The notes under the pieces are model-generated. The model searched no databases. It had not been told where the DNA came from and saw only the letters and a program-made list of their open reading frames with translations. From NCBI GenBank assembly GCA_009840595.1, contig VXNK01000002.1, positions 1 through 47,159 of the forward strand: 47,159 nt of DNA, read 5' to 3'. Made by a program: the position numbers and the translations under genes. Origin of the DNA: Rhodospirillaceae bacterium (lineage in GTDB: Bacteria; Pseudomonadota; Alphaproteobacteria; Bin65). Below, one piece after another: positions 21,738-26,364 of the stretch (its first letter is position 1; each line of letters opens with the position of its first letter).

Positions 21738-22610
21738 CTACTCCGCCGCGTCGCGCCGGACGGTCAGGTCGTTCACCGTAAACGCCCGCTCGCTGTGCAG
21801 CGAGGGAATGCGGCGCCGGCTCTTCTCCACCAGGTCGAGATCGAGAGTGCCGAACACCGGGCTCTCGCCTTCGCCGCCGTCGGCGACCGTCTCGCCCCAC
21901 GGATCGACGATCAGCGAGTGGCCGTAGGTCTTGCGGCCTTCGGCGTGGTCGCCCCATTGGGCGGGCGCGATGACGAAACAGCCGGTCTCGATCGCCCGGG
22001 CGCGCAGCAGGGTGTGCCAATGGGCCTTGCCGGTCGTGCGGGTAAAGGCCGACGGGATCGTCAGGATATCGGCGCCGGCCTGGGCCAGCGTGCGGTACAG
22101 GCCGGGGAAGCGCAGGTCGTAGCACACCGTCATGCCGATCCGGCCCCAGGGCGAGGGCGCCAGAACGGCTTCCGATCCTGCCTGTATGGTGTCGGATTCG
22201 CGATACCGCTCGCCCTCGCGCAGATTGACGTCGAAACAGTGCAGCTTGTCGTAGCGGGCCACGACGGCGCCGTCGTCGTCGACGAGGAAGGAACGGTTGG
22301 CCAGCTTGCCGCCGGGCAGCCGGATCGAGAGCGAACCGATCAGCAGCCACACCCCGGCCTTGCGCGCCGCTTCGGTCAGAGCGGGCAGCGCCGGATGGTC
22401 CTCTTCCGTCTTCGCCTTGCGCACCGCAGCGGCGGCGACCGGCTCGATCATCGTGGCGTTTTCCGGCGTCAGGACGAATTTCGCGCCCTCCTCCGCGCAG
22501 GTGCGGATCATCCGGCAAAGCTTGCGGATATTCGGATCGAATTCGCGCCCGGCCGTCACCTGCAGGCAGGCAACCTTGACGCGCCGGCCGCCGTCTGTCC
22601 CGCTTGCCAT
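21738..22610 (-). CDS. Nitrilase-superfamily carbon-nitrogen hydrolase (Nit/omega-amidase type)
   Basis: A 290-residue amidase with the Glu-Lys-Cys triad: Glu50 in LTPENATM, Lys122 in RYDKLHCFDV, and Cys163 in TVCYDLRFPGLYR. The motif set is that of Nit1/Nit2-like enzymes, which hydrolyse deaminated glutathione or alpha-keto-glutaramate-type amides. Its ATG shares one base with the grxC stop (TGATG), so it is co-translated with glutaredoxin. The grxC-nitrilase pair is a common alphaproteobacterial arrangement and fits repair of damaged glutathione, though the substrate here is not proven. Confidence 0.92.
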   Translation of the reverse strand: MASGTDGGRRVKVACLQVTAGREFDPNIRKLCRMIRTCAEEGAKFVLTPENATMIEPVAAAAVRKAKTEEDHPALPALTEAARKAGVWLLIGSLSIRLPGGKLANRSFLVDDDGAVVARYDKLHCFDVNLREGERYRESDTIQAGSEAVLAPSPWGRIGMTVCYDLRFPGLYRTLAQAGADILTIPSAFTRTTGKAHWHTLLRARAIETGCFVIAPAQWGDHAEGRKTYGHSLIVDPWGETVADGGEGESPVFGTLDLDLVEKSRRRIPSLHSERAFTVNDLTVRRDAAE

Positions 22611-22870
22611 CAGGCGCTCCCGGCCAGCATCGGATCCAGCTTGCCGGCGGCGTCCATGGCGTGGAGTTCGTCGCAGCCGCCGATATGCCGGCCGTCGATC
22701 CAGATCTGCGGTACGGACGTGGCCCCGGCCCGCTCGGCCATGGCGCGGCGCAGTTTGGGCTTGAAGGTGACGTCGACCTCCGTATACGCCGCGCCCTTGC
22801 GTTTCAGCAGAGACAGCGCGCGGGCGCAGTACGGACACAACATCGTCGTGTAGATTTCTACGGTCGCCAT
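22610..22870 (-). CDS. grxC: Glutaredoxin 3
   Basis: An 86-residue dithiol glutaredoxin with active-site CPYC (Cys12, Cys15), the cis-proline segment TSVPQIWI and the glutathione-binding GGCDEL. It reduces disulfides with glutathione. Translation is coupled to the nitrilase-family gene downstream. The lyase gene lies 79 bp upstream in the same direction, so a longer transcript is possible. Confidence 0.95.
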   Translation of the reverse strand: MATVEIYTTMLCPYCARALSLLKRKGAAYTEVDVTFKPKLRRAMAERAGATSVPQIWIDGRHIGGCDELHAMDAAGKLDPMLAGSA

Positions 22871-22949: not shown

Positions 22950-24401
22950 TTACGACGGATAGATCTCCCGGCGCAGCATTTCCGCCATCGAAGCCACGGC
23001 GGGGCCGAACGCCGCCTGCTGCGCAGGATCGGGCAGGATATCCCGCGCCGCCGCCGCCAGCCCGGACAGTTGCGGCGGCGCCTGCCGGCCGGTGACGTCG
23101 AGCGCGCGCAGGGCGATCGGGATGAGGCTCGCCAGCGCCATGTCGAGGCACCGTCCGGCGCGGTCCTGCTTCGACCACGCCAGAAATACCGGGCTCGCCA
23201 CGTCGTTCTGTCCGAACCCGCCGGATTCGCTGCCGGGCAGCACCGTCGCCTGGGCGTAGAGGCGGGCCTCCTCTTCGTATCCGGTCTGGGCCATCGGCAA
23301 ACATCCCATGTAGGCGCGGCGGATGCCGCCCTCGGCCTCGGGGCCGATCAACTGGTCGGGCAGCAACGAGACCGCGCCGTCGAGCAGCTTCGCCCCGTGG
23401 CGCTCGGCGAGGACGCTGAGATTGGCCCAGACCGCGGTTACGGCATCCATGGCAAGCACCGCGTGGGGATTGTGATAGCCCCCGGTCGAGACGAACCGGC
23501 CGAACGGATGATCGTCGTCGGCATCGTCGATCCAGACGGGATTGTCGGTCACGGCCTGAAGCGATTCCGCAGCCACTTCGGCGGCCAGGGCCGCGGCGCG
23601 GCGGGCCTGGCCGAGCATGCGCGGCAGGATGCGGAAGCTGACCGGCGCCTGGTACGGCCGCCGTTCGGACTCGCAGCCGTCGCCGACCAGCTCCCGCAGG
23701 CGGCCGAGCGCCCAGCGGTCGTGTGGGTTGTTCCAATAGCCTTCCAGCGCCGGGGCGAGATGCCCGAGCGGCGCGTTGAAGGCTTCGAAAGACAGGGCGA
23801 AGACCTGCGCTGCGATATCGATCCGTTTCCCGGCGGCCAGCGCGGCATCGACCGCGAGGCCCGTGGCCGACGGCGACCCGTTGATCAGGCACATCACGTC
23901 CTTGGCCGCCGGATTTACCCGCTCCGCAAGTCCGGTAAAGAGATGGCTCAACGACAGGATCTCGCCCGCGCCGCCATGGCCCTGCACCGGCACAACGGGC
24001 ATCCGGTCCGCATCCAGCATGGCAGCGACGCCCTGGGCGACCTCCGGGGATATGGCGGCATGGCCTTCCACGAAGTTGGTCAGCCGCGCCAGAACGATCG
24101 CCCGCACGACGCGGTCGGGCAGCGGATCGCCCCAGGATGCCGCGGCGCGGGCCGGCGACATGCCGGCCCACTGGGCGCGTTGCTCAGCGGTGAGTTTCGA
24201 CCGCGCGAGTTGGCCCGGACCCGTGGTCACGCCGTAGATGGTCACGTCCGGATCGTGTTCGAGAATGCGCTCCAGGCGATCGCGGCCTTGCGCCATGGCG
24301 GCCCGCGCCCGCGCGCCGAGTTCGACGCCCTCGCCGTCCCAGGCCACGCGGCGGGCGGCTTCGAGCGTGAGATCGGCCCTGGAATCCACGATGACCGTCA
24401 T
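22950..24401 (-). CDS. Aromatic-amino-acid-lyase homologue lacking the MIO triad
   Basis: A 483-residue member of the HAL/PAL fold. Conserved elements are YGVTTGPG (Tyr56), LINGS (Asn174), the S-x-R segment SFRILPRMLG (Arg257) and TDNP (285-288). Histidine ammonia-lyase has G-S-V-G-A-S-G-D, whose Ala-Ser-Gly cyclises to the MIO electrophile. Here residues 141-147 are G-H-G-G-A-G-E, one residue shorter and without the serine. The usual Q-E-D near the C-terminal half is Q-N-D (398-400). Known MIO-free relatives include ergothionase, which removes trimethylamine from ergothioneine. A similar elimination on a betaine or other substrate is my inference. AGGAGA precedes the ATG by about 8 bp. Confidence 0.85.
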   Translation of the reverse strand: MTVIVDSRADLTLEAARRVAWDGEGVELGARARAAMAQGRDRLERILEHDPDVTIYGVTTGPGQLARSKLTAEQRAQWAGMSPARAAASWGDPLPDRVVRAIVLARLTNFVEGHAAISPEVAQGVAAMLDADRMPVVPVQGHGGAGEILSLSHLFTGLAERVNPAAKDVMCLINGSPSATGLAVDAALAAGKRIDIAAQVFALSFEAFNAPLGHLAPALEGYWNNPHDRWALGRLRELVGDGCESERRPYQAPVSFRILPRMLGQARRAAALAAEVAAESLQAVTDNPVWIDDADDDHPFGRFVSTGGYHNPHAVLAMDAVTAVWANLSVLAERHGAKLLDGAVSLLPDQLIGPEAEGGIRRAYMGCLPMAQTGYEEEARLYAQATVLPGSESGGFGQNDVASPVFLAWSKQDRAGRCLDMALASLIPIALRALDVTGRQAPPQLSGLAAAARDILPDPAQQAAFGPAVASMAEMLRREIYPS

Positions 24402-24554
24402 GTCCGGGTCTCCTGTTCGGTGCGGAAGGCAATGTCCCGGCGGCAACGGCGGCGCGATCCGCCGGGCCGGGCGGGGTGACAAGCCCGGGATACCGATTCC
24501 CGGAGACGTTTGCGAGAGATAACCGGCTTCCGGCCGCGTCGGCGCCGTTACTCA

Positions 24555-24582
24555 GGGGCCATTACTCCGGGGCCATTACTCC
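24555..24582. repeat. 14-bp tandem repeat over the comF stop codon
   Basis: Two exact units GGGGCCATTACTCC (24555-24568, 24569-24582), preceded by a partial third (GTTACTCA at 24547-24554). On the minus strand each unit carries a TAA, and the comF stop (24576-24578) is one of them. The period is not a multiple of three. Confidence 0.85.
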
Positions 24583-25373
24583 GGCTGGGCGCCGCGGACG
24601 ACGCGCGCGAACGCGAGCGCATCGACCCGGGCCGCGCCGGCCCGCTTGAGCGCGCGGGCGCAGGCTTCGAGGGTGGCGCCGGTCGTCAGCACGTCATCGA
24701 CCAGCAGGATCCGCGCGCCGTCGACCGCTTCCCGCCGGCGCGGCGAAACGGCGAAGGCGCCGCGGACGTTGAGACGCCGGGCGCGGCGGTTGAGCCCGCC
24801 CTGGCCCGGCGTCGCCCGCGTCCGGCGCAGCAGGTCCAGGCACAGGTCGACGCCGGCCGACGCCGCGACGCCGCGCGCCAGTTCGGCCGATTGGTTGTAG
24901 CGCCGCGCCGCCAGCCTGCGCCAGTGCAGCGGCACCGGCGCGACCAGATCGGCCTGCTCTGCCCGTTCCGCGCCGGCTCGTGCCATCCAGCCGCCGAAAT
25001 GGCGCCCCGCCTGCATCCGGTCGCCGTGCTTGAAGGACAGGATCAGCGGCCGGCTGGCGTCGTCGTAGCGCAGCACGGCCCGCGCCGAATCGAACGCCGG
25101 CTCGCGGGCGGCGCAGCCGCCGCACAGGGCGCCGTCGGCGATGTCGAATTCGAACGGCAGTCCGCAGCAGGCGCACCACGGCCGCTCGATGAAGGAGAGG
25201 CCGCCCCAGCAACTGCCGCACAGGGCGCCTTCGCTTGGCGTGATCGCGCCGCATCCCAGGCAGCGCGGCGGCAGCAGCAGGTCGGTCGACCGGCGGGCGG
25301 CCGTGCGCAGAAGGCCGGGGATTCCGAAACGCGCGCGCCGGCCCGGTGCAGCGCCGGCAGCGCCGTCAGTCAC
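24576..25373 (-). CDS. comF: ComF family phosphoribosyltransferase-like protein
   Basis: A 265-residue ComF-type protein, related to proteins needed for DNA uptake. The N-terminal part is a zinc-ribbon-like segment with cysteine pairs (PRCLGCG, CGSCW, CACCGLPF, CGGC), followed by a phosphoribosyltransferase fold with APVPLHWRRLAARRYNQS and the PRPP-loop ILLVDDVLTTGATLE. The start is taken as GTG 25373, which overlaps the end of ppk2 by 8 bp and puts the cysteine cluster at the usual distance. An ATG-like start further up would overlap ppk2 by about 100 bp. The stop codon lies in a 14-bp tandem repeat. Confidence 0.88.
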   Translation of the reverse strand: MTDGAAGAAPGRRARFGIPGLLRTAARRSTDLLLPPRCLGCGAITPSEGALCGSCWGGLSFIERPWCACCGLPFEFDIADGALCGGCAAREPAFDSARAVLRYDDASRPLILSFKHGDRMQAGRHFGGWMARAGAERAEQADLVAPVPLHWRRLAARRYNQSAELARGVAASAGVDLCLDLLRRTRATPGQGGLNRRARRLNVRGAFAVSPRRREAVDGARILLVDDVLTTGATLEACARALKRAGAARVDALAFARVVRGAQPE

Positions 25374-26364
25374 CGCCCTTGCTGCGATTGGCGCCGCGGC
25401 GCTGGTCCGGGTGCAGGGAACTGCCGAAGATATGGTCGCTCTCGCCGATGGCGTGGGCGGGGCCACCGACGATCAGGGGATCGGGCTCGCCGACGACCTT
25501 CAGGTCCTTGCCCGGATAGGGCAGGTTGCTCAGGAAATGCCGCATGCAGTTCAGCCGCGCCCGCTTCTTGTCGTCCGACTTGATGATGGTCCAGGGCGCA
25601 TCGGCGGTATCGGTGTAGAAATACATCGCCTCCTTCGCCTCGGTGTAGTCGTCCCACAGGTTGAGCGATTTCCGGTCGATCGGCGACAGCTTCCACTGCT
25701 TCAACGGTTCGTTCTCGCGCGAGTCGAAGCGGCGGCGCTGCTCCTCCCGGGTCACGGAGAACCAGTATTTGAACAGCCGGATGCCGCTGCGCACCAGCAT
25801 GCGCTCCACCTCCGGCGCCTGGCGCATGAATTCGAGATATTCGTTGGCGGTGCAGAAGCCCATGACCCGCTCGACGCCGGCCCGGTTGTACCAGGAGCGG
25901 TCGAACAGCACGATTTCCCCGGCCGAGGGGAGGTGCCCGATATAGCGCTGGAAATACCACTGGGACTGCTCTTTTTCGGTCGGCTTGTCGAGCGCGACCA
26001 CCCGGGCGCCGCGCGGGTTCAGGTGCTCCATGAACCGCTTGATGGTGCCGCCCTTGCCGGCCGCATCGCGGCCTTCGAACAGGCAGACGATCTTCTGCCC
26101 GGTCTCCTTGACCCAGTCCTGCACTTTGAGCAGCTCGACCTGGAGTTCCGCCTTGCGGTTCTCGTAGTCCCTGCGCCCGATCTTGCGCTTGTAGGGATAT
26201 TCGCCCGATTCGAAGAGCCGGCGGATCGCCTCGCGGTCGCGCCGGACTTCCGCGACGGGCCGGACGGGGCCGGCCGCCCTTTCGGCCAGTTCGGGCAGCG
26301 GTTCGGGGCCGTCGCCGGCCGCCGCGGAGCCGTTGCCGCCGCTGCCGCGTTGCGCGTTGCTCAT
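25366..26364 (-). CDS. ppk2: Polyphosphate kinase 2 (PPK2 family)
   Basis: Transfers phosphate between polyphosphate and nucleotides. 332 residues with one PPK2 domain: Walker A GRDAAGKGG (98-106), a lid-type region near KPTEKEQSQWYFQRYIGHLP, and Walker B with VLFDRSWYNRAGVERVMGF. The single domain and these motifs fit class I enzymes, which mainly make GTP or ATP from the diphosphates, but class cannot be fixed from motifs alone. The C-terminus has an extra polar tail (after FLSNLPYPG). It overlaps comF by 8 bp, an unusual pairing, and is divergent from an SDR gene across 149 bp. Confidence 0.93.
   Translation of the reverse strand: MSNAQRGSGGNGSAAAGDGPEPLPELAERAAGPVRPVAEVRRDREAIRRLFESGEYPYKRKIGRRDYENRKAELQVELLKVQDWVKETGQKIVCLFEGRDAAGKGGTIKRFMEHLNPRGARVVALDKPTEKEQSQWYFQRYIGHLPSAGEIVLFDRSWYNRAGVERVMGFCTANEYLEFMRQAPEVERMLVRSGIRLFKYWFSVTREEQRRRFDSRENEPLKQWKLSPIDRKSLNLWDDYTEAKEAMYFYTDTADAPWTIIKSDDKKRARLNCMRHFLSNLPYPGKDLKVVGEPDPLIVGGPAHAIGESDHIFGSSLHPDQRRGANRSKGGD

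Follow-up and report, generated by a model that had tools for sequence, protein, structure and literature searches.

A family of MIO-free lyases in Alphaproteobacteria that may release trimethylamine from hercynine

What can an aromatic-amino-acid lyase do if it lacks the serine that forms MIO? A gene in the window (the whole stretch of 47,159 nucleotides that we analyzed, from a Rhodospirillaceae bacterium) raises this question (Table 1). Its product is a member of PF00221 (Pfam search, E = 3.8e-62), and at 149.5 bits it does not meet the curated cut-off for HutH (539.15 bits, profile TIGR01225). An initial annotation, made from the sequence alone, suggested a MIO-independent eliminase, perhaps for a betaine. 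We propose, with a probability of roughly 65%, that it is a catabolic trimethylamine-lyase that acts on hercynine (N-alpha,N-alpha,N-alpha-trimethyl-L-histidine) without the use of MIO; the substrate, products, and mechanism are inferred. That it is a MIO-free trimethylamine-lyase for some betaine is likely, although this activity is itself an inference.

Table 1. Features of the lyase gene and its neighbors in the window.
Feature	Coordinates	Strand	Basis
MIO-free aromatic-amino-acid-lyase-fold protein, 483 amino acids from ATG	22950..24401	-	translation and PF00221
AGGAG, Shine-Dalgarno-like, 8 nt 5' of the lyase ATG	24410..24414	-	sequence
G141-H-G-G-A-G-E147, MIO-loop site with the MIO-forming serine deleted	23961..23981	-	translation and alignment
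Tyr56, equivalent to the catalytic base Tyr53 of HAL	24234..24236	-	alignment
Ala86, at the position of the imidazole-contacting His83 of HAL	24144..24146	-	alignment; orthologues have Ala, Ile or Val
Asn174, equivalent to Asn195 of HAL	23880..23882	-	alignment
Q251-APVSF-R257, equivalent to Gln277 and Arg283 of HAL	23631..23651	-	alignment
Q398-N399-D400 instead of Q-E-D; Glu414 of HAL is replaced by Asn	23202..23210	-	alignment
Glutaredoxin-like gene (CPYC), grxC, downstream of the lyase; outside the proposed pathway	22610..22870	-	translation
ComF-family gene, upstream of the lyase; outside the proposed pathway	24576..25466	-	family search

When canonical HutH is aligned with the lyases that carry the GA-GE motif, exactly one residue is gone, and it is the MIO serine (Ser143 of HAL): GASGD corresponds to GA-GE, and GSVGASGD of HAL corresponds to GHGGA-GE in the window's lyase. 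The initial annotation had described a loop that is one residue short and lacks Ala-Ser-Gly, with Q-N-D in place of Q-E-D and with well-preserved surroundings, and all of this holds up: we find the shortened loop at the coordinates that it gave, as well as Q-N-D, the flanking PVVPVQ and ILSLSHLF, Tyr56, LINGS, Arg257, and TDNP. Gly141, Gly144, Gly146, and Glu147 are invariant in an alignment of 14 members of the wider clade. The roles of the other active-site residues are established for Pseudomonas HAL. In the alignment with HutH, the equivalents of Tyr53, Asn195, Gln277, Arg283, and Asp415 are retained in practically all members of the clade (the tyrosine in all but one, a truncated sequence at L140 that has Cys instead). 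Within the segment from Gln251 to Arg257, every member of the clade has Val where HAL has Tyr280. And both of the residues of HAL that contact the imidazole, His83 and Glu414, are replaced (by Ala, Ile or Val and by Asn), so recognition of the imidazole must differ from that in HAL.

The loss of the family's catalytic group could also mean that the protein is non-catalytic or decaying, and the window's copy has no operon partner: it lies alone between comF and grxC, with no hut or tmo cluster around it. We scanned 84,980 species genomes and found 34 orthologous loci, of which 32 include the site region (56–95% identity) and two are fragments. The hosts are metagenome-assembled Alphaproteobacteria (including one from a Spongia sponge and uncultured Rhodospirillaceae) and a few bins with other labels. 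G-[QH]-GGAGEI and GQNDVASP are present in every one of the 32 except L033, where the gene is frameshifted (positions 1-1380, at the start of the contig); L033 is either a pseudogene or an assembly error. Because the motif is identical in all of the intact orthologues, we rule out a sequencing error at the loop, which would have undone the initial annotation's inference. The shortened MIO loop is a real and conserved feature. Furthermore, dN/dS between the window's lyase and eight orthologues is 0.11–0.22, which indicates purifying selection, the catalytic residues are retained throughout the clade, and orthologues are tightly linked to other genes in operons. So the view that the gene is not decayed is borne out, and a non-catalytic protein seems very improbable.

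The orthologues' neighbors suggest one of the products. In five loci (L007, L031, L012, L020, and L036), the lyase gene comes after hutC-hutU, and in L012 and L036 it overlaps hutU by 4 nt. Seen over a greater length (L165), the surroundings of the L031 copy are a complete hut locus, lyase-hutU-hutC-hutG-hutI-hutF, in which HutU, HutI, HutG, and HutF are above their curated cut-offs and the lyase is at the expected position of hutH. The HutU proteins of G005 and G013 are canonical (945 bits, versus 718–719 for S-methyl-thiourocanate hydratase and 701–702 for thiourocanate hydratase). The link to hut rests on only five loci, from two or three sub-branches.

We also considered that the lyase might deaminate histidine by some mechanism that does not use MIO, and so replace HutH. 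This would account for its place in L165. Also, no canonical HutH was found in the genomes of the five hut-linked loci, and HutU occurs without canonical HutH in nine genomes with the family (G004, G005, G006, G010, G013, G015, G018, G028, and G032). At least nine genomes thus have HutU and the lyase without canonical HutH, including one (G757) that is 98% complete and that agrees with G010 in the coordinates of the lyase and of Tdm. However, the window's own genome and several relatives retain canonical HutH besides the lyase, and His83 and Glu414 are gone. We know of no ammonia-lyase of the HAL fold that lacks MIO. Histidine would not yield trimethylamine, which leaves the gene linkages described below unexplained. 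We consider a histidine ammonia-lyase to be unlikely.

At three other loci, the lyase gene adjoins genes for TMAO uptake, and two of these also have TMAO demethylase (Tdm) and/or trimethylamine monooxygenase (Tmm). In G015, the genes are arranged as tdm-tmoW-tmoV / tmoX-lyase-x-tmm (second gene context TRIMETHYLAMINE); L021 has tmoX-lyase and a fragment of Tmm; and L013 has tmoV and tmoW alongside the lyase. Tdm was assigned with NF053776 (1250 bits, cut-off 1100). The Tmm fragment of L021 matches NF058570 and PDB 5iq4 (E = 2.5e-111). The nearest PDB entry to TmoX is 4xz6 (E = 1.5e-116). This entry is a binding protein of the glycine betaine/proline type, which we take to be the TMAO-binding protein TmoX of Ruegeria. 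These three loci are closely related to one another, and no single locus has both the hut and the tmo/tmm links, which are in different orthologues. In G025, G026, G029, and G030, tdm and the lyase gene are 7–12 kb apart. A distant member of the clade (L154/L167) has genes for a TMADH/OYE-like flavoenzyme, an iron-sulfur protein, and a GcvT-like protein nearby. ETF-like proteins, identified by eye, are encoded between these genes.

Across genomes, Tdm is above its cut-off in 27 of the 33 with the family. Five of the 33 have no match to Tdm, including four of the five hut-linked genomes (G005, G013, G018, and G032; Tmm is present in G018). In one draw of 385 Alphaproteobacteria, Tdm was found in 12 of 17 genomes with a lyase of the clade versus 22 of 368 others (Fisher, P = 1.4e-10), or, counted by genus, in 6 of 10 versus 15 of 266 (P = 1.6e-5). 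These counts are inflated by relatedness, as the genomes are not fully independent. The physical linkage to tdm and tmo genes is the stronger argument. It gives independent support to the suggestion of a betaine substrate, though the activity remains inferred.

Linkage to genes for trimethylamine would fit any betaine. The substrate might be another trimethylated aromatic amino acid or an ergothioneine derivative, such as ergothioneine, S-methyl-ergothioneine, hypaphorine, or some other betaine. Other members of the clade do have different partners, including UbiD decarboxylase (L154 and L156) and, next to the clade member at L159, an S-methyl-thiourocanate hydratase that is above its cut-off (890.8 versus 880). 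And HutU is missing from six genomes with the family: G007-G009, G012, G016, and G017, which have a lyase of the window's family, also lack HutH, and it is not obvious what would become of urocanate in them. But the hydratase that is linked to the window's family is canonical HutU, which points to unmodified urocanate; this is why hercynine fits better than ergothioneine. A different betaine is possible, and we doubt it.

We prefer hercynine because the contexts of the orthologues point to both urocanate and trimethylamine as products. In our proposal, the lyase would convert hercynine to urocanate and trimethylamine. Canonical lyases need the electrophilic MIO to expel a poor leaving group, the amino group. 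A quaternary ammonium would already be a better leaving group, so MIO may be unnecessary; this is an inference, for which ergothionase is a precedent. Tyr56 would remove the beta proton, Arg257 and Asn174 would hold the carboxylate of the substrate, and the shortened loop, with the invariant Glu147, may shape the part of the site that MIO would otherwise take. Urocanate would then enter the Hut pathway (HutU-HutI-HutF-HutG), and trimethylamine would enter the Tmm-Tdm methylamine pathway. The idea of a MIO-independent eliminase remains in good standing: GA-GE cannot form MIO and the other catalytic residues are retained, although this argument is from sequence and the activity is inferred. We found no report of a hercynine lyase in open-licence papers (subscription journals were outside the scope of our search).

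The window's own genome encodes HutU, Tmm, Tdm, and TmoXVW. Its tmm/tmoXVW/tdm cluster is on contig C8 and does not include the lyase. Its canonical HutH, with Ala-Ser-Gly intact, is on contig C100 (L002, 1129-4052) beside a HutF-like gene, and HutU is on a different contig (C88). EgtD makes hercynine, and we found no EgtD in 30 of the 33 genomes with the family, including the window's own. Hercynine would therefore come from outside, which suggests that these bacteria would import it. A supply exists: hercynine was detected in 9 of 10 cyanobacteria (PMC3826126).

To place the family, we collected more distant members of the clade with family-profile searches and built a quick tree, without the MIO columns. 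(Several branches are long, and ergothionase was not included.) A branch with SH-aLRT support of 100 separates all 62 GA-GE proteins from canonical HutH, a Pseudomonas-type "GYLT" group, and a "GA-SD" group. The initial annotation would have been refuted by placement within a MIO-containing clade or by an Ala-Ser-Gly shifted elsewhere in the pocket. The GA-GE proteins are separate in the tree, and the alignment contains no shifted motif. We lean slightly towards a broader picture, in which MIO-free betaine lyases form a clade of their own, defined by the deletion of the MIO serine, and the window's branch is a hercynine trimethylamine-lyase. In some marine Alphaproteobacteria, this enzyme would replace HutH, with the Hut pathway running on hercynine instead of histidine and with trimethylamine feeding methylamine catabolism.

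We also noticed several unusual members of this clade and of PF00221. A 2.7 Mb, 100% complete alphaproteobacterial genome (G504; L159, L160, and L193-L200) has about 24 MIO-free lyases of the GA-GE clade, with tandem arrays of five and six that adjoin a gene similar to S-methyl-thiourocanate hydratase and an oligopeptide-type ABC transporter. UbiD-family decarboxylase genes are beside clade members at L154 (4756-6138) and L156 (6008-7372), which suggests that some lyases of the clade make aryl-acrylates that are then decarboxylated. A second PF00221 group (L052, L053, and L106-L109) has the motif GSVGA-SDLA, in which the glycine after the MIO serine is missing; its PDB score with ergothionase is better than that of the window's family, and it shares some genomes with that family. 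In the PF00221 proteins of L121 (1423-4426) and L122-L124, the MIO loop is replaced by GSVGYLTHMAHVG, and in L121 the gene for this type of protein is directly before a canonical HutH gene. Finally, G649 (L203; L154, 959-2770) has several PF00221-type proteins of about 600 amino acids. In two of those at L203, the MIO loop reads SRGSLGEADL and SRGTLGEGDL, and they may be a further MIO-free type.

If our proposal is correct, then the lyase would degrade hercynine, a betaine that marine cyanobacteria produce. It would also be a trimethylamine source that would escape searches for lyases of choline, carnitine or ergothioneine. A sizeable MIO-free clade is hidden under annotations as "histidine ammonia-lyase". 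It also offers a natural system for studying when MIO is dispensable: the substrate may have a better leaving group where otherwise the enzyme has a better electrophile.

How does the window's lyase compare to characterized enzymes? An AF2 model (pLDDT 81, pTM 0.86) has the full HAL fold and is equally close to HAL, tyrosine aminomutase (TAM), and ergothionase (Z scores of 33.8–34.5, a tie). Superposition on ergothionase, which the initial annotation had called for, gives Z = 34.3 and an rmsd of 2.6 with 459 aligned residues. With HutH (TIGR01225; 1b8f), the lyase shares the fold, the equivalents of Tyr53, Asn195, Gln277, Arg283, and Asp415, and, in L165, the place of hutH. Unlike HutH, it lacks the MIO serine, has replacements for His83, Tyr280, and Glu414, and belongs to a separate clade.

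Ergothionase (from Treponema denticola, 6s7j/6s7q, and from Burkholderia sp. HME13) also has the HAL fold without the MIO triad; it is described as a lyase without MIO in PMC13405746 (citing Maurer 2019). MIO-free trimethylamine-lyases of this fold are thus already known, and the window's lyase would be a variant of these. Release of trimethylamine from a histidine betaine would be a further similarity, which for the window's lyase is only proposed. However, the two are just 19% identical, and ergothionase ranks 35th of 36 solved relatives by phmmer (25 bits), weaker than MIO enzymes. Also, ergothionase is paired with thiourocanate hydratase, whereas the partner hydratase of the window's family, where typed, is canonical HutU. 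We rejected simple orthology with ergothionase, given these scores and the type of the partner hydratase. At 217 bits, ergothionase clearly has more similarity to the "GA-SD" group than to the window's family. Since it is so distant from the latter, the MIO-free state probably arose more than once in the superfamily, judging from sequence similarity and with ergothionase absent from the tree. The closest parallels for the pathway as a whole may be the catabolism of ergothioneine-sulfonate and of S-methyl-ergothioneine (Yan 2022, as cited in PMC13405746; NF058531), which, judging by titles and family names, follow the same logic: a trimethylamine-lyase and then a HutU-type hydratase.
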